Under the pieces are notes generated by a model that was given only the letters and a program-made list of their open reading frames with translations, made no database searches and had not been told where the DNA came from. Below, piece by piece: positions 13,392 through 21,806 of a stretch of 38,924 nt of DNA. A program made the translations under genes and the position numbers. Every line of letters starts with the position of its first letter. Position 1 is the first letter of the stretch. The stretch is from Candidatus Eiseniibacteriota bacterium (lineage in GTDB: Bacteria > Eisenbacteria > RBG-16-71-46): positions 1-38,924 of the forward strand of contig JANXPZ010000231.1 in assembly GCA_025357055.1 (NCBI GenBank). The letters are read 5' to 3'.

Positions 13392-13432
13392 GTCGCCACG
13401 GGGATGTGCTAACTTCCATTCCCCGTGGCGAC
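13392..13432 (+). terminator. Perfect 13-bp hairpin ending the pilus operon and spanning the larE start
   Basis: GTCGCCACGGGGA (13392-13404) pairs perfectly with TCCCCGTGGCGAC (13420-13432) around a 15-nt loop. It lies 31 nt after the last pilus-operon gene. There is no T-tract, so it may act as a rho-assisted terminator or a block. The larE GTG start lies in the right arm and a -10-like element in the loop, so on read-through transcripts the start codon would be buried. Confidence 0.6.
13407..13415 (+). promoter_or_regulatory. Extended -10 promoter element for larE
   Basis: TGcTAACTT reads as an extended -10 (TG-n-TAnnnT type), 9 nt before the larE GTG. No -35 at 16-18 nt is convincing. The predicted start of transcription is at or next to the start codon, giving a leaderless mRNA that would escape the hairpin around it. 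Confidence 0.45.
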
Positions 13433-14303
13433 TTCCCCTGTGATCCGGCCCGGCGGGCCCGCTTCCGCCCCGTCCGCCCACCCGCTCGACGGCCTTTCCT
13501 GGCCCGAGCGGCTGGAGCGCCTGCGGGCGCTGCTGCGTGAGCTCGGCAGCGTGGTCGTGGCCTACTCCGGCGGCGTGGACTCGAGCCTGCTGCTGCGCGT
13601 GGCGCACGAGACGCTCGCCGAGCGCGCGCTGGGCGTGATCGGGCGTTCCGACTCCTACGCGGCCCGCGAGCTGGAACTGGCCCGCGCGCAGGCGGCGTCC
13701 TTCGGGGCGCGGCTCGAGGTGGTGACCACCGGCGAACTGGCCGACCCGGCCTTCCGGGCGAACCCCGCCGAGCGTTGTTATCACTGCAAGAACGAGCTTT
13801 ACCGGCAACTGGAGGCGGTGGCGCGCCGCACGGGCGCGGTGGTCGTGGACGGCACCATCGTGGACGACCTGACCGACTGGCGGCCCGGCCGGCGCGCGGC
13901 CGGGGAGCACGGCGTGCGTTCGCCTCTCGCCGAACTGGGCTTCTCCAAGGCCGAGGTGCGCGCCGCGGCGGCCCACTACGGCCTGGCGAGCGCGGGCAAG
14001 CCGGCCTCGCCCTGCCTGGCCTCGCGCATCCCGTACGGGACCGAGATCACCCGGGAGAACCTGGCCATGGTCGAGCAGGCGGAGGCGCTCCTGCGCTCGC
14101 TGGGATTCGCCGAACTGCGCGTGAGGCATCACGGCGACACGGCCCGCATCGAGTTGCCGCTCGCGGACCTCGCCCGCCTCGGCGAGCCGGGCCTGCGCGA
14201 GCGGGTGGTCGAAGGCCTCAAAGCACTGGGATATCGCTACATCACGCTGGATCTCGAGGGCTTCCGCTCGGGCAGCCTCAACCGCGTCCTGCTGGATGGA
14301 TAG
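13425..14303 (+). CDS. larE: LarE-type ATP-dependent sacrificial sulfur transferase
   Basis: A 292-residue PP-loop ATPase of the LarE/NadE-like superfamily. LarE adenylates a pyridinium carboxylate precursor and transfers sulfur to it during synthesis of the nickel-pincer cofactor of lactate racemase. The PP-loop AYSGGVDSS lies at residues 46-54. Three cysteines stand out: C118-x2-C121 (ERCYHCKNELY) and C197 (ASPCLASR), the last at the position of the sacrificial cysteine. A three-cysteine set suggests the cluster-binding type of LarE rather than the single-cysteine sacrificial type (inference). GTG 13425 sits in a hairpin arm. No larB or larC is in the window. Confidence 0.88.
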   Translation: MATSPVIRPGGPASAPSAHPLDGLSWPERLERLRALLRELGSVVVAYSGGVDSSLLLRVAHETLAERALGVIGRSDSYAARELELARAQAASFGARLEVVTTGELADPAFRANPAERCYHCKNELYRQLEAVARRTGAVVVDGTIVDDLTDWRPGRRAAGEHGVRSPLAELGFSKAEVRAAAAHYGLASAGKPASPCLASRIPYGTEITRENLAMVEQAEALLRSLGFAELRVRHHGDTARIELPLADLARLGEPGLRERVVEGLKALGYRYITLDLEGFRSGSLNRVLLDG

Positions 14304-15222: not shown

Positions 15223-15876
15223 ATGACTGGTGTGATTCGCAAGGCTACGGTTTTCGTAGCGCTCGGACTCGTGGCGGCTTCGGCTGCGATGGCCGGGATT
15301 CCCAGTGCGGCCAATTGTACGGTGCCGGCCTTCATCAAGGTCGTTGGCACTAAGGTCGGAGTTCCCGATCCGCGCGGCACGTTCAGCATCACCGTCCGTG
15401 ACATCGGCAACTTCCCGGTCGTCGGCAGCAACGTGGTGTTGAATTTCGCGGCCTGCACCGACACGCGCCTCTGCAGCGGCACGAATGTGACCTGCGCCGC
15501 GCCTGCGCGAGTGACGGGAATCACGAATGGCTCCGGCGTCGTGACCTTCACGGTCGTCGGCGGCGGTCTGCACCCCGGTGGAGTCTTCGCTGGCGCTGCC
15601 GCCGGCTGCGTCACGATCCTGGCGGACAGCTACGTGATCGGCAATGCCACCGCGAACGTCTACGACTTGAACGGCGCTCTTGGTGGAGCCAAGAACGGCG
15701 TCGCGGTCACGGACATGCCGCTCTTCCTGGCGGACTGGGCCGGGTCTGCCACGTATCGTGGTCGTTCGGACTTCAATCAGAACGGCGCCATCGCCATCAC
15801 GGACCTGCCGATCTGGCTCCAGTGCTGGGGCAGCGGCAATTCGGTGACCGGTTGCACCACCACGTACTGCCCTTGA
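15223..15876 (+). CDS. Secreted protein with C-terminal dockerin-like calcium repeats
   Basis: A 217-residue exported protein. A signal peptide (about residues 1-24, ending AAMA) is followed by a small beta domain (residues 30-140) with several cysteines (ACTDTRLCSGTNVTCAA). The C-terminal region carries two dockerin/EF-hand-like units, VYDLNGALGGAKNGVAVTDM and RSDFNQNGAIAITDLPIW, each with D-x-N-x-(G/A) loop residues and a following helix ending L-x-x-W-x-GS. Such modules bind calcium and anchor or stabilise secreted proteins. GGAGGT lies 6 nt before ATG 15223. No cohesin is in the window, so an anchoring partner is unknown. Confidence 0.72.
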   Translation: MTGVIRKATVFVALGLVAASAAMAGIPSAANCTVPAFIKVVGTKVGVPDPRGTFSITVRDIGNFPVVGSNVVLNFAACTDTRLCSGTNVTCAAPARVTGITNGSGVVTFTVVGGGLHPGGVFAGAAAGCVTILADSYVIGNATANVYDLNGALGGAKNGVAVTDMPLFLADWAGSATYRGRSDFNQNGAIAITDLPIWLQCWGSGNSVTGCTTTYCP

Positions 15877-16019: not shown

Positions 16020-16790
16020 ATGAAGAAGATCCTTCTCACCGGTACGATGCTCTGCCTGACGGCTTCCATGGCGTTGGCTTCCGGCCTGAACTTCACTTGG
16101 AGCCCGACGGTGCAGTGCCCGGCGGCGCCGATCGCGAATCAGACTTGGGATTGCACCACGCTGCCGGGCGCCAACGACGCCTTCCTCACCATGGTCATCT
16201 CGGTCATGCCCAACATCCCGGTCGTGGGCTTCAATGCCATGGACGTCCGCATCGACGGCCAGGGCGTCGGCCCCGTGCCCGCGTGGTGGCAGATGTTCAA
16301 TGCCGGTTCGTGCCGTGAGTTCAGCATCACGCCTGGCGTGATGACCTCGGGCAACTTCACCGCGCCGTGCGCCGGCACCGCCGCCACGAAGCTGTGGACC
16401 ACCGCCCCGAGCGGCGGCATGGCGAACTGGAACATCGCGGGCAACCGCTTCAGCACGCTGATCGGCTTTGCGACGGCTGGCAATCGCGTGAACCCGCTGG
16501 TCATCACCACGCAGTACAACGCGTTCAACTTGGTCCTGGACACGAACGGCTCGGTCACGGATCCGGACATGGGCGTCGTCGAGTGCGCTGGTTGCGCCGA
16601 GGGCATGACGCTGGTGCTGAACGAGATCGGGCTGTACGGCTCGGGTGCTGAAGACCATGTCACGCAGGTTGGGACCACGGTCGGCGCTCAGATGTGCATC
16701 CAGTGGCAGGGTGGCGCGGGCGCTGGTGTCTGCGCTGCTACCCCGGCCCGCAACACGACCTGGGGCCAGGTCAAGAGCCTGTACCGGTAG
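16020..16790 (+). CDS. Secreted protein of unknown function, tandem family member 1
   Basis: A 256-residue exported protein. Its signal peptide MKKILLTGTMLCLTASMALA is less GC-driven than its neighbours. No known domain was recognised. The mature part is rich in W, C, N and T, with LNFTWSPTVQCP, VPAWWQMFNAGSCREF, VVECAGCAEGMTLVLNEI and a C-terminus CIQWQGGAGAGVCAATPARNT ending TWGQVKSLYR. The same landmarks recur in the next gene, so the two are paralogs. GGAGG (16010-16014) lies 5 nt before ATG 16020. A clear hairpin terminator follows. Even cysteine numbers suggest disulfides outside the cytoplasm (inference). Confidence 0.75.
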   Translation: MKKILLTGTMLCLTASMALASGLNFTWSPTVQCPAAPIANQTWDCTTLPGANDAFLTMVISVMPNIPVVGFNAMDVRIDGQGVGPVPAWWQMFNAGSCREFSITPGVMTSGNFTAPCAGTAATKLWTTAPSGGMANWNIAGNRFSTLIGFATAGNRVNPLVITTQYNAFNLVLDTNGSVTDPDMGVVECAGCAEGMTLVLNEIGLYGSGAEDHVTQVGTTVGAQMCIQWQGGAGAGVCAATPARNTTWGQVKSLYR

Positions 16791-16818
16791 TCTCGTCAGA
16801 ACCCGTAGAACGATTCAG

Positions 16819-16853
16819 CGGCGGCCACCTCTTCGGTGGGGGCCGCCGTTTCT
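16819..16853 (+). terminator. Hairpin terminator after tandem family member 1
   Basis: CGGCGGCC plus ACC (16819-16829) pairs with GGT plus GGCCGCCG (16835-16848), with a three-base GGG bulge at 16838-16840 and a CTTCGG-type tight loop, followed by TTTCT. It lies 28 nt after the stop and is a good rho-independent terminator candidate. Confidence 0.75.
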
Positions 16854-16929
16854 GCTGTGCCCGGCAGGGGCGCCGACTCTGAGGTGGCCCGGTTCGGCGG
16901 ACGTTCTGCCGCGCTCGTCCGTCTGGTGT

Positions 16930-16959
16930 TTGGGAGCCGCTGCAAGCGTGGGCTAGAAT
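16930..16959 (+). promoter_or_regulatory. Promoter for tandem family member 2, leaderless
   Basis: TTGGGA (16930-16935), an 18-nt spacer and TAGAAT (16954-16959). The -10 ends only 7 nt before ATG 16967, so transcription should begin at or next to the start codon. The in-frame ATG at 16958 overlaps the -10 and cannot be the start of this transcript. Confidence 0.6.
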
Positions 16960-16966
16960 GCCGCGC

Positions 16967-17734
16967 ATGAATGCTCACCGTCCCAACCACGCGCTCGCAG
17001 GGCTCCTCACGGGGCTCCTCCTGTGTGGTGCCGCCGGCCCGGCCGCGCGCGCCGACGAGGGGCTCTTCCTCACCTGGGGTGACTGCGCGCTGGGGACCTC
17101 CGCTCACGACCGCTCAAACCCCTGCGACACGAACGTCGGGGACCAGAAGCTCTTCTGCGCCTTCCGCCTGCCCTTCGCCGCGGACAGCGTGCTGGGGCTT
17201 GAGTTGGTGGTGGACGTGCAGCACTCGGCCGCCAGCATGCCCAGTTGGTGGATGTTCGCCCCGGGTGGCTGCCGCGCCGGATCCCTGCGGCCGGCGTTCG
17301 ATTTCACGGGGCGGTCGTCGTGCCGGGACTTCTTCCTGGGGAACGCGACCGGGAGCTTGCAGAGCTACACCGTGGGGCAGCCTCACGGCGGCGCCAACCA
17401 GGCCCGCATCCAGATGGCGGCGGCGATGCTTCCCAGCTTCGGCTACGCGACGCTCAACGACACCGACATGTACTACGCCGCGGTCCTGACCATCCCGAAC
17501 GACTTTACCGTGGGCGGCACGGTCTGCAGCGGTTGCGCCGGCCCCGCCTGCCTGGTGCTCAACTCCATCCTCGTCCGCCGCCAGCCCGGGACGGCCGGTG
17601 GCGACATCTCCCTGACCGTGCCGGGCCCGGATGGCGCCAACTTCGCCACCTGGCAGGGTGGCGTGGGCGCGGCCTGCGCCGCGGTGCCCGTGAGGGCCGT
17701 GACCTGGGGCCAGATCAAGGGACTCTACCGATGA
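16967..17734 (+). CDS. Secreted protein of unknown function, tandem family member 2
   Basis: A 255-residue exported protein with signal peptide MNAHRPNHALAGLLTGLLLC... ending ARA. It aligns by landmarks with the preceding secreted protein: GLFLTWGDCALG near the mature N-terminus, MPSWWMFAPGGCRAG, VCSGCAGPACLVLNSILV, and the C-terminal FATWQGGVGAACAAVPVRAV followed by TWGQIKGLYR. No catalytic motif or known domain was recognised. ATG 16967 is chosen because the upstream ATG overlaps the -10 element. The stop overlaps the start of the next gene (ATGA), so members 2 and 3 are translated together. Confidence 0.75.
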   Translation: MNAHRPNHALAGLLTGLLLCGAAGPAARADEGLFLTWGDCALGTSAHDRSNPCDTNVGDQKLFCAFRLPFAADSVLGLELVVDVQHSAASMPSWWMFAPGGCRAGSLRPAFDFTGRSSCRDFFLGNATGSLQSYTVGQPHGGANQARIQMAAAMLPSFGYATLNDTDMYYAAVLTIPNDFTVGGTVCSGCAGPACLVLNSILVRRQPGTAGGDISLTVPGPDGANFATWQGGVGAACAAVPVRAVTWGQIKGLYR

Positions 17735-18648
17735 CGCGTCTGGCTCGAAGCCTGGGCGCGACAGCGGCGCTCGCAGCCCTCGTGGCGCTGCTCGGGGGCG
17801 CCGCCCCCGCCGCCGTGACGCAGGCCGCGAAGCCAGCGTCCCCTCCCGCGCCCGTCGCTCCGGCCGCGGCCGTGACGCAGGCCGCGAAGGCGGCCCCACC
17901 CGGGCCCGTCGCTCCCGCCGCGGCCCAGGGTGCCCCGGGGGCTCGCCGGGCTCCGCCCGGCTCCGCCAGGTTCGAGTCGTCCGACGTCGATTCGTTCGCT
18001 CCACCGCAGCTCTTCATCGCCTGGCACGCGCCCTACGGCACGCCCGGGGCCACCGACACCATCTCCTTCGGGGCCGGCGACTCGAACCGCGTGGACACGC
18101 TTTTCATGTCCTTCGAGATCGGGCGCAACACCCCCCAATTCCTGGGGATGACCGCGCGGCTCTATTTCCATCCCGCCAACGGCGACACGCTCGGCACCTA
18201 CTGGCGCTACGACTCCGGGTCGCCCAACTACCGCAACCTGGAGATCGAGTTCGACCCCGACGGCTCGTTCCCCTGCCCGCAGCCCTGGAACCGCAGCGGC
18301 GCAGGCCTCGTCGATTTCGAGTTCGATGCCGGTGGGGCCAGCCTGGACCTCACCTACGTCATCACGGCCATGCAGAACGTCATCCCGGCGGACGGCCGCG
18401 TCCGGTATTGCTTCGCCCGGGTGATGTTCCGCCAGAGGCGCTGGGACCTCCCGGGTGCGCGCCAGCCGGTCTGCCTCGAGTGGGCGGTCTCGCGCTTCTC
18501 GTCCGGGCTCGACGAGGCGACCGCGCGGAGCGGACCGGGCCGCTGCATCTCGATGAACTCGCCGGATGGGAGCGTGTGTGTGCCGTACCGCCGCAACCCC
18601 GGCCCCCTCCCCTGGGCACCACCCCGTCCAGTGATCGGTCGGCCCTGA
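17731..18648 (+). CDS. Secreted protein with Ala/Pro-rich linker, tandem family member 3
   Basis: A 305-residue exported protein. After a signal peptide (about residues 1-27) comes an Ala/Pro linker made of two 19-residue repeats beginning AVTQAAK (residues 28-65), which could span the cell wall or surface. The C-terminal 210 residues form a beta-rich domain with LFIAWHAPYGTPGATDT, FMSFEIGRNTPQFLGMTARL, YWRYDSGSPNYRNLEIEF and VCLEWAVSRFSSG. These loosely follow the plan of the two preceding genes, so I treat it as a distant member. It ends 7 bp before an insertion sequence; the extreme C-terminus (PLPWAPPRPVIGRP) looks unstructured. Confidence 0.7.
   Translation: MTRLARSLGATAALAALVALLGGAAPAAVTQAAKPASPPAPVAPAAAVTQAAKAAPPGPVAPAAAQGAPGARRAPPGSARFESSDVDSFAPPQLFIAWHAPYGTPGATDTISFGAGDSNRVDTLFMSFEIGRNTPQFLGMTARLYFHPANGDTLGTYWRYDSGSPNYRNLEIEFDPDGSFPCPQPWNRSGAGLVDFEFDAGGASLDLTYVITAMQNVIPADGRVRYCFARVMFRQRRWDLPGARQPVCLEWAVSRFSSGLDEATARSGPGRCISMNSPDGSVCVPYRRNPGPLPWAPPRPVIGRP
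17812..17925 (+). repeat. 57-nt tandem repeat encoding the Ala/Pro linker
   Basis: Two 57-nt units start GCCGTGACGCAGGCCGCGAA at 17812 and 17869. They keep frame and encode 19-residue AVTQAAK... units in the secreted protein. In-frame duplication explains the linker length. Confidence 0.75.
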
Positions 18649-18706
18649 CGGTTGGGTTGTGCTCTGAGGATTGTGTCTGGCAAGGGGTGTGCGATGTCCC
18701 TCCGGC

Positions 18707-19807
18707 ATGTCTGCGTCGTCCGCCTGTTTCAAGCCCCCCTGCTGCCCCAACCCCGACTGTCCATTCCATTGTTGCACTGAGGGCTGGCGCTTCAAGCGCA
18801 TCGGCTTCTTCGCCCGGCTGGCTGCGCCCCACCGTATCCAGCGTTACCAGTGCCGTCACTGTCGGAGGAGCTTCTCCACCCAGACCTTCTCCACCAGTTA
18901 CTGGCTGCGCCGCCCGGAGCTGCTCCAGCCCCTCTTCTTCCGCCTGCTGGCCTGCTCCGGGTTCCGCCAGATCGCCCGCGAGTTCGCCGTCAGTCCCACC
19001 ACCATCCTCGGTCAGAGCGCCCGCCTGGGGCGCCACTGCCTGCTCTACCAGCATCGTCACCGGCCCCGCGCCGCGCCCGCGGAGCCCCTGGTGCTCGACG
19101 GCTTCGAGAGCTTCGAGTTCAGCCAGTACCACCCCTGCCACTTCCATGTCGTGGTCGGCCAGGAGTCGCACTTCTTCTACTGTTTCACCGACTCGGAGCT
19201 GCGCCGCAAGGGTCGCATGACCGCGCACCAGCGGGACCGGCGCCGCTGGCTCGAGCAGCACTTCGGCCGGCCCGACCCGCGCTCGATCGAGCTCGAGGTC
19301 GCCCAGGCCCTGCAGTTGGTGGTACCGCCAGGCTCGCTGACCGAGCTGCACTCGGATGACCACCCGGCCTACCCGCGGGCCCTGAACGGCCTGGCGGAGC
19401 ACCGCTTCCGCCACCGGGTGACGCCCGGCAGCGCGCCACGCACCGCAGCCAACGCCTTGTTCCCGGTGAACCTGCTGGACCTGCTGATCCGCCACGGCAG
19501 CGCCAACCACAAGCGCGAGACCATCGCGTTCTCCAAGCGGCGCCAGAGTGCGATCGAACGACTGACGGTGCTGCAGGTCTGGCGCAACTTCATCAAGCCG
19601 TTCTCGGAACGGCGACGCAACAGTCTCACCCCGGCGGAGCGCCTGGGGCTGTGCAAGTGGAGGCTCAGGGTGGCCGAGGTCCTCAAGGAGCGGCTGCTGC
19701 CCAGCCAGGTGCGACTACCCGAACGGCTCGAGCGCTACTATCGCCGCGAGGTGCCCACCCGACGCATCCCCCACGGCGCGCGCCACCGACTGCGCTACGC
19801 CGACTGA
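18707..19807 (+). CDS. IS transposase with N-terminal zinc ribbon and DDE-like core
   Basis: A 366-residue transposase. The N-terminus holds a zinc ribbon with paired cysteines (CCPNPDCPFHCC and YQCRHCRRSF), as in IS1/IS1595-type enzymes, then an HTH-like segment (FRQIAREFAVSPTTILGQSARL). Candidate catalytic residues are Asp in LVLDGFESFEF, Asp in LTELHSDDHPAY and Glu in NHKRETIAFSKRR. The C-terminus is very basic. ATG 18707 is chosen; a TTG at 18671 would start inside the left inverted repeat. The frame is intact, so the enzyme may still be active. The exact IS family cannot be fixed by eye. Confidence 0.85.
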   Translation: MSASSACFKPPCCPNPDCPFHCCTEGWRFKRIGFFARLAAPHRIQRYQCRHCRRSFSTQTFSTSYWLRRPELLQPLFFRLLACSGFRQIAREFAVSPTTILGQSARLGRHCLLYQHRHRPRAAPAEPLVLDGFESFEFSQYHPCHFHVVVGQESHFFYCFTDSELRRKGRMTAHQRDRRRWLEQHFGRPDPRSIELEVAQALQLVVPPGSLTELHSDDHPAYPRALNGLAEHRFRHRVTPGSAPRTAANALFPVNLLDLLIRHGSANHKRETIAFSKRRQSAIERLTVLQVWRNFIKPFSERRRNSLTPAERLGLCKWRLRVAEVLKERLLPSQVRLPERLERYYRREVPTRRIPHGARHRLRYAD

Positions 19808-19872: not shown

Positions 19873-21696
19873 CTAATCCTGCAAGGGGTCGGTTAGTCTT
19901 ACGAGCATGATGCGCTCGGGGTGGAGCACGATCCGGTGCTCCAGCCGGTGGCGGGCGATGAACTCCTTCAGCATCTGCTCACCCTTGATGTTCTGCAGCG
20001 ACTCGTCCACGATCTTCTCGACCTCGTCGTAGCGGAGCTGGCGGCCCGGGTCGTGTTCGAGCTTCTGGATCACCGCGTACTCGTCATCCTTGACCGGCCC
20101 CTGCACCATGACGTCGCCCGGCTTCAGGTCCTGGGAGAGCAGGGCGAAGAACGGGCCCGGCTGGTTCTCGCGCTCGGAGCGGATGGAGCCGGTGCTCCGG
20201 CCCAACCGGAGCGAGTCCTCCCGCATGATCGCCTCCGCTGACTCACCGTGGCGGATCCGGTCGGCCAGCGAATCGGCCGCGGCCCTCGTGCCCCGGGCGA
20301 TCGCCGCGTAGCGCACGCCCTGGTAGGTCCAGAACTCGCGGAGCCGTGACTGGTAGTACTGCTGACGCTCCTCGGGGGTGATCCAGACCTTCGCCTGGAC
20401 CGAGTCCTCGAACAGGTGCTGCACCATCAGCTCTTCCCGCTTCCTCTCGATCTGGGAGATCGTCAGCGGATCGCGGTCGATGCCGCGCTCGGTGCCCAGG
20501 TCGGCCATGTAGGGCTCGAGCAGGCTGCCGTCCAGGAACGAACGGAACGACTCGAAGGTCTGCACTTCCGGGCGCCTGACCGGCGATACGCCCCGGTAGA
20601 CCGAGAGGAAGCGGCGCAGCGTGAACTGCCCGGCCTTCCAGCGGGCGAGCACCCGGCCGGTGTCGGCCGGGGTGACCCGGGGGATGCTGCTCGACAGGTC
20701 CAGCGTGGGCTCGCCGTCCGCCGGACGCTTCTTCAGGGCCGCCGTCTTCGCGAACAGGTCCGCGGCCCACGCGATGTTCGTGCTGTCGTAGGCCAGTCCG
20801 GTGCGCTCCCGCAGGACGCCACGCATCTGCTCGACCCGCTGGTTGATCTTCAAGGGCGTGAGCTGGTCGGCGAGGATGCTGTGCATCCGCTCGTAGGGCG
20901 GCATGGGATTGGGCCTCCGCCCCAGCAGGCGCAGGACCTGGAAGCCGTCCTTGTCCATGTACACGTGCGAGATCTGGCCGTCCTTGAGATCGCAGAGGGC
21001 GAAGCCCTGGTTCAAGGGGAGCGCGGAGCGCTGCACCCAGCCCATGTCGCCGTCCGGTCCCGAGTCCTGCTGCGCGATGGAATAGCGCGCCACCGCCTGC
21101 GGCCAGGTGATCCGCCCGGCGGCCAGCTCCTTGCGTACCTGCTCGGCGTCGGCGCGCGTGGCCGTCAGCACGTGCTGGAAATGCCGCAGCTGGAGGCTCT
21201 GGTCGTAGGCGCGCCGGATTTCGGCCTCGGAAGGGACTGCGGAATCCGCCACGAGGCGCTGGAAGGTCATGTTCGAGAGGACCCGCTGCGTGTGCTCGCG
21301 AAGCACGGCGCGGTCCTCGAAGGTGGACGGCCGGTTCACCCGGCGGGCCAGCCGGGCCAGGACCTCCTTGTCGGTCATGGCCGTGAGGAACTGGAAGCGC
21401 CCGGCGCTGTCGGGTGCCGGCCGGTCCAGGGCATAGGAGGAGTACCAGTTCTGGCGGAACTCGAGGACGCTGAACCGCCGGTCGTCCACGCTTCCCAGCA
21501 GCGCGGTGTCGGGCAGGAACTGCCCGGTGTCGGGGACGCCGTTCACGTAGGTCACGTACTTGCGGGGGGCGGACTGTGAGTCGGCCGGTGCGGCGGGCTT
21601 TCCGGCCGCGGGCGTCCATGGCTTGACCGGGGCGGCGGCGAAGGTCACGGAGCCGAGCAGGAGCAGGGCGAAGGAGGCGAGCGCGCGACGTTTCAT
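19873..21696 (-). CDS. SurA/PPIC-like periplasmic peptidyl-prolyl isomerase, copy 1
   Basis: A 607-residue exported protein. The signal peptide is MKRRALASFALLLLGSVTFA. A SurA_N-like helical region includes FLTAMTDKEVLARLARRVNR, and a parvulin domain at about residues 170-265 contains LRHFQHVLTATRADAEQV and GPDGDMGWVQRSALP. A second degenerate helical/parvulin part follows (VWITPEERQQYYQSRLREFW, RYAAIARGTRAAADSLADRI). Such proteins escort outer-membrane proteins. ATG 21696 follows GGAG at a good distance; the frame opens upstream to 21786, but the promoter lies there. The stop TAG uses one base of the adjoining IS end, so the last residues may not be native. Paralogous to 26175-27638. Confidence 0.82.
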   Translation of the reverse strand: MKRRALASFALLLLGSVTFAAAPVKPWTPAAGKPAAPADSQSAPRKYVTYVNGVPDTGQFLPDTALLGSVDDRRFSVLEFRQNWYSSYALDRPAPDSAGRFQFLTAMTDKEVLARLARRVNRPSTFEDRAVLREHTQRVLSNMTFQRLVADSAVPSEAEIRRAYDQSLQLRHFQHVLTATRADAEQVRKELAAGRITWPQAVARYSIAQQDSGPDGDMGWVQRSALPLNQGFALCDLKDGQISHVYMDKDGFQVLRLLGRRPNPMPPYERMHSILADQLTPLKINQRVEQMRGVLRERTGLAYDSTNIAWAADLFAKTAALKKRPADGEPTLDLSSSIPRVTPADTGRVLARWKAGQFTLRRFLSVYRGVSPVRRPEVQTFESFRSFLDGSLLEPYMADLGTERGIDRDPLTISQIERKREELMVQHLFEDSVQAKVWITPEERQQYYQSRLREFWTYQGVRYAAIARGTRAAADSLADRIRHGESAEAIMREDSLRLGRSTGSIRSERENQPGPFFALLSQDLKPGDVMVQGPVKDDEYAVIQKLEHDPGRQLRYDEVEKIVDESLQNIKGEQMLKEFIARHRLEHRIVLHPERIMLVRLTDPLQD

Positions 21697-21752
21697 GTGC
21701 TTCTCCGGTGAGTGGCTCGGTGGACCGGGCCGGAAGGGGGAGTCGAAGGACG

Positions 21753-21806
21753 GAAAAAGTCTAGAGGTGGCGCCGGGGGCGGTCAACCGCCGCTCCCGGC
21801 GCCACC
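21753..21806 (-). terminator. Terminator of the RND operon, 12+6 bp stem with T-tract
   Basis: On the minus strand, 3 nt after the RND pump stop, GGTGGCGCCGGG (21766-21777 plus-strand) pairs with CCCGGCGCCACC (21795-21806). An inner helix forms between GGCGGT (21778-21783) and ACCGCC (21786-21791). A run of five T follows on the minus strand (21758-21754). The next gene's promoter overlaps the same bases. Confidence 0.75.
21758..21786 (-). promoter_or_regulatory. Promoter of SurA-like copy 1, embedded in the upstream terminator
   Basis: On the minus strand TTGACC (21786-21781), a 17-nt spacer and TAGACT (21763-21758). The predicted start is near 21751, giving a leader of about 55 nt. The -35 lies in the inner stem and loop of the RND operon terminator and the -10 just after its stem. 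Confidence 0.72.

Follow-up and report, generated by a model that had tools for sequence, protein, structure and literature searches.

A short C-terminal tail on unrelated exported proteins of Candidatus Eisenbacteria and related phyla as a candidate protein-sorting tag

We found that a ten-residue tail, T-W-G-x-x-K-x-x-Y-R, shared by two neighboring secreted proteins, sits at the end of hundreds of otherwise unrelated exported proteins in Candidatus Eisenbacteria and related phyla, and it looks like an undescribed address label that may send proteins to the cell surface through the type IX secretion system (T9SS). The starting point was a stretch of 38,924 nucleotides from a Candidatus Eiseniibacteriota bacterium (contig JANXPZ010000231.1, assembly GCA_025357055.1; hereafter the window), in which an earlier note had pointed out a tandem family of three exported proteins, here named A, B and C. 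The features on which our analysis relies are as follows.

13425..14303 (+), PP-loop ATPase (LarE-like by eye; only sub-threshold Pfam PP-loop matches), conserved flank of the locus
15223..15876 (+), Ig/invasin-like exported protein with two dockerin-like EF-hand repeats, a conserved gene just upstream of the array in six other loci
16020..16790 (+), protein A (256 aa, start at ATG 16020): signal peptide, six-cysteine body predicted as a cohesin-like beta-sandwich, tag
16725..16787 (+), linker and C-terminal tag of A (...PARNTTWGQVKSLYR-stop; strict tag codons 16758-16787)
16958..17734 (+), protein B (258 aa): paralogue of A, same body and tag
17669..17731 (+), linker and C-terminal tag of B (...PVRAVTWGQIKGLYR-stop; strict tag codons 17702-17731), a low-confidence detached helix in the model
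17731..18648 (+), protein C (305 aa): distant, tag-less member whose start overlaps the stop of B; orthologues close the tagged array in 10 other genomes
19873..21786 (-), PpiC/SurA-type peptidyl-prolyl isomerase (PPIase), convergent conserved flank of the locus

The observation made in the earlier note is confirmed. A and B are homologues that align at 34% identity (E 3e-14), whereas C shows nothing in pairwise BLAST but is a genuine, remote member by profile-profile comparison (hhalign probability 95%, E 3e-8 for C alone; 99%, E 1.9e-18 with its orthologues). The landmarks named in the note are real: an N-terminal [LF]-x-W, a WW/YW followed by GCR/SCRE, C-x-GC...LVLN and, in A and B, a C-terminal TWGQ(V/I)K-LYR that is absent from C. 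The Ala/Pro linker of C, described there as repeat-built, comes from a duplicated DNA segment, with copies of 36 and 31 nt at 89–90% identity. One detail is not supported, namely that the three genes use different promoters: the ATG of C overlaps the stop of B (ATGA at 17731-17734) and these two are almost certainly co-transcribed. Only A and B are separated, by 167 nt containing a hairpin of ordinary strength (z -1.0) and a promoter-like match at 16930-16959. The dockerin-like call for the upstream protein rests on two D-x-N-x-x-G-x-x-x-x-x-D-[LM] repeats; the window protein itself has no Pfam Dockerin_1 hit, and a single orthologue reaches E 0.02, below the cut-off (15.5 bits against 22.9). 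Pfam and NCBIfam searches with the window proteins returned nothing.

The note had proposed a profile search and a count of copies and contexts per genome as checks. A profile of 13 members, which share six cysteines (three possible disulfides), detects the family in all 20 genomes of the taxonomic family group of the window, at 1–22 matches per genome. Matches in other families are few and weak, and those listed cover only the C-terminal part with the tag. Named relatives include the Candidatus Eisenbacteria records JACOSV010000023 and JACOSU010000188. The locus is conserved and consists of a PP-loop ATPase, a small protein, the dockerin-like protein, one to nine tagged copies in the inspected loci, one tag-less C-type protein and the convergent PPIase. 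C-type orthologues were found in 10 other genomes, next to the last tagged copy wherever the contig allows this to be seen. All 49 full-length A/B-type members in these loci, the window included, end in the tag or a near variant (RAWG, GSWG, TWSD, one shifted end) and all 11 C-type members lack it. In the window, an ORF at 18671-19807, with a zinc-ribbon-like N-terminus resembling an IS transposase but no significant Pfam match, lies between C and the PPIase gene; since these are direct neighbors in other genomes, it looks like an insertion.

A first structure model built from 13 sequences was too poor to use (pLDDT 65). With 53 sequences, the model of B reached pLDDT 93 and pTM 0.89, showing a beta-sandwich body (pLDDT about 95) and a detached, low-confidence helix made of the tag (residues 217-225 of the mature protein, pLDDT about 60). 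The closest solved fold is the cohesin 2vo8 (Foldseek probability 1.00); many other hits are cohesins as well, but an E-value of only 8e-4 and a TM-score of 0.58 by target length against 0.39 by query length leave the assignment to the cohesin jelly-roll fold undecided. A PDB sequence search with the family profile found nothing. Together with the dockerin-like gene upstream, these results suggest, but do not show, a cohesin–dockerin type of assembly; the evidence for it is genetic proximity only, as dockerin binding was not assayed.

The interpretation of the note, a lineage-specific surface or matrix system, is partly supported: the family is real, tandem, exported and lineage-specific, it has a confident common fold, and a surface role fits, but its most informative shared segment does not belong to the family. 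Searching the same genome with A gave hits that matched only the last 18–21 residues. A DNA pattern for T-W-G-x-[ILV etc.]-K-x-x-[YF]-R-stop then found 13 sites in this genome against 0 for the reversed pattern, and 12 of these 13 are ends of proteins with a visible signal peptide and mostly unrelated bodies. The tag is present in 44 of 47 genomes of the phylum and in 25 of 26 of high quality, with up to 30 per genome and about 415 in total, again with 0 for the reversed control. In 298 Pseudomonadota genomes there is none besides one chance hit in no ORF. A scan of 84,980 species genomes returned at least 115 stretches, nearly all of them ends of exported proteins; the named ones are mainly from Eisenbacteria, Krumholzibacteriota, Latescibacterota, Zixibacteria, Ignavibacteria, Kapabacteria, Calditrichota and KSB1, mostly FCB phyla, a range that is a sample and not a census.

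The 134 signal-peptide-bearing carriers examined fall into 65 clusters of unrelated bodies, 41 of them singletons, and include LTD, beta-helix, NHL, CBM20, CHRD, P-domain and choice-of-anchor E and Y domains. By a crude hydrophobicity test, 83 of 98 tagged frames have a signal peptide against 93 of 326 background frames. None of the 134 proteins matches a known C-terminal sorting model in NCBIfam (June 2026) or Pfam (2025), and none matches TIGR04183, TIGR04131 or the ChiA-type model at E <= 0.01. In the literature searched, no paper contains the tag strings tried and none links C-terminal sorting signals to Eisenbacteria. C-terminal sorting signals are a known kind of element; this version, with neither membrane helix nor beta-domain, appears to be undescribed.

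Conservation acts on the peptide and not on the DNA. We counted 212 distinct 33-mers, which use all four Thr and Gly codons and six Arg codons, while the x positions vary freely. The consensus extends upstream as [TVS]-[PSA]-[VTA]-[ED]-x-[STR]. Dropping the stop from the pattern leaves the count in this genome at 13, and the extra sites in other families end 1–6 residues after the tag in 21 of 21 inspected cases; so the tag is C-terminal but need not be the very last residues. In some families, at loci of three genomes, the extra residues number 1–5 and are often acidic (E, EGTD, EDTD, EATD), mostly on beta-helix-type proteins.

In Ignavibacteria, Kapabacteria and KSB1, exactly one protein per examined genome carries the tag, a small protein with a single FN3-like domain. 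The same genomes hold many more copies of that FN3, and in all 18 inspected (17 distinct) it is followed by 88–103 residues of T9SS tail, with the type A model TIGR04183 above cut-off in 10 of 10 tested. Thus, the tag stands where a T9SS signal stands. A search for a dedicated enzyme beside the tagged gene in single-tag genomes, an approach that works for rhombosortase, found only Maf, EamA, methylmalonyl-CoA mutase-type and other housekeeping neighbors; the tagged FN3 gene of Ignavibacteria-like genomes often sits next to a Maf-type gene and an EamA transporter gene, for which we have no explanation. Genomes with several tags almost always have SprA: it is found in 46 of 47 genomes of the phylum and in 44 of 50 other tag-bearing genomes reached through named records. 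Five of the six without it have only one or two tags, at least one of these being a chance match outside any gene; one MAG with five tags, labelled Rokubacteria, lacks SprA but may be chimeric or incomplete. Tags in genomes without SprA (three loci, labelled Acidobacteriota, Rokubacteria and Kerfeldbacteria) may reflect mis-binned contigs, mislabelled genomes or real transfers. Type A sorting domains (TIGR04183, Por_Secre_tail) are present in 47 of 47 genomes of the phylum, often more than 50 per genome. T9SS, therefore, appears to be general in Candidatus Eisenbacteria, although reviews describe it as restricted to Bacteroidota (PMC10202324).

What the sequences themselves establish is a modular tag at the extreme C-terminus (0–6 residues from the end), carried mostly by proteins with Sec signal peptides, conserved as protein, and taking the place of the T9SS type A domain on the same FN3 body; who reads it is our inference. 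We hypothesize that, after Sec export, the tag, a mobile amphipathic helix on a flexible linker, is recognized in the periplasm or outer membrane and routes the folded protein to the cell surface. We are confident that it is a sorting tag of some kind. The most likely reader is T9SS (SprA with a PorV- or PorP-like shuttle), which would make the tag a fourth, very short T9SS signal beside types A, B and C, but we regard this part as somewhat less likely than not: secretion, cleavage and dependence on SprA were not measured, the tag lacks the beta-sandwich and motifs of every known T9SS C-terminal domain (CTD), and SprA co-occurrence may only reflect FCB ancestry. Three genomes of the phylum with T9SS lack the strict tag (two of them 81–88% complete), one taxonomic family group (f11) has 0–2, and PorV-family copy number does not explain tag number (rho 0.29, a weak correlation with genome size as a confounder). 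On the other hand, the last 22 residues of one T9SS CTD are reported to suffice to export GFP (PMC4804311) and T9SS reads several families of signals (PMC12618676; PMC10202324), so a short alternative signal is plausible. For the window locus, A and B would be tagged six-cysteine, cohesin-fold proteins delivered to the surface, C their tag-less partner and, more speculatively, the dockerin-like protein a binding partner.

Alternatively, the tag could be an anchoring or docking peptide: the proteins would leave by another route and the helix would then bind a surface receptor, glycan or outer-membrane component. A short mobile helix after a linker is what docking peptides look like, it tolerates 0–6 extra residues, and it replaces anchor signals on choice-of-anchor bodies. 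The exact replacement of the T9SS CTD on FN3 proteins and the near-restriction to SprA-bearing genomes fit a T9SS signal better but do not exclude anchoring, which we keep as a tentative possibility. A quality-control tag, read by a periplasmic protease or a SurA/PpiC-type chaperone, is unlikely. The tail is aromatic-rich and a PpiC/SurA-like PPIase flanks the array in most inspected family loci, but this gene belongs to this one locus, none is seen beside the single-copy tagged genes, and PPIases are far more widespread than the tag.

That the motif is simply inherited with the family as part of its fold, in line with the reading of the earlier note, is very unlikely. A and B are indeed homologous over their whole length and the array is conserved, but the tag occurs on 65 unrelated body families, is the disordered part of the model and is missing from the C-type members; this reading is refuted for the tag and still valid for the body. 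A mobile 3′ DNA cassette, copied between genes without function as a peptide, would account for many unrelated genes sharing the tail but is contradicted by the 212 DNA versions, with free synonymous and x positions while T, W, G, K, [YF] and R are fixed across phyla. The fixed positions are partly imposed by the search pattern, but they recur as invariant columns in family members found by their bodies, and we consider this explanation all but excluded.

In the broadest reading, about as likely as not, the tag defines a new class of outer-membrane sorting signal, a minimal helical peptide read by a dedicated component, either a new T9SS shuttle or an unknown pathway, which spans several FCB phyla and began as a single-copy FN3 protein before spreading to dozens of proteins per genome in Eisenbacteria and relatives. 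Ten residues give a simple handle to predict the surface or secreted proteins of several mostly uncultured phyla, extend protein sorting with a signal that has neither membrane helix nor beta-domain and make it possible to test directly how small a T9SS signal can be.

Among known systems, the T9SS CTDs of type A (TIGR04183/PF18962), B (TIGR04131) and C (ChiA-type) are also C-terminal and modular, are carried by unrelated Sec-exported proteins in the same genomes, take the same place after the same FN3 body and end in hydrophobic/aromatic and then basic residues. However, they span about 70–235 residues instead of 10–16 and form a beta-sandwich instead of a predicted mobile helix. GlyGly-CTERM, PEP-CTERM, LPXTG and MYXO-CTERM tripartite signals are likewise short tails shared by otherwise unrelated secreted proteins, many per genome, with alternative tails on homologous bodies (PMC3237569, PMC11980579). 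The tag, in contrast, has no transmembrane helix and no separate basic cluster, no hydrophobic helix follows it, no CTERM model matched at the tail and no partner intramembrane protease or sortase was found; exosortase, sortase and rhombosortase were rejected as readers on this anatomy and not by searching for the enzymes. Regarding the bodies, cohesin and CBM3-type beta-sandwich modules are the closest known systems, B matching cohesin 2vo8 with a dockerin-like gene upstream, but at 8–12% identity, with extra insertions and six conserved cysteines.
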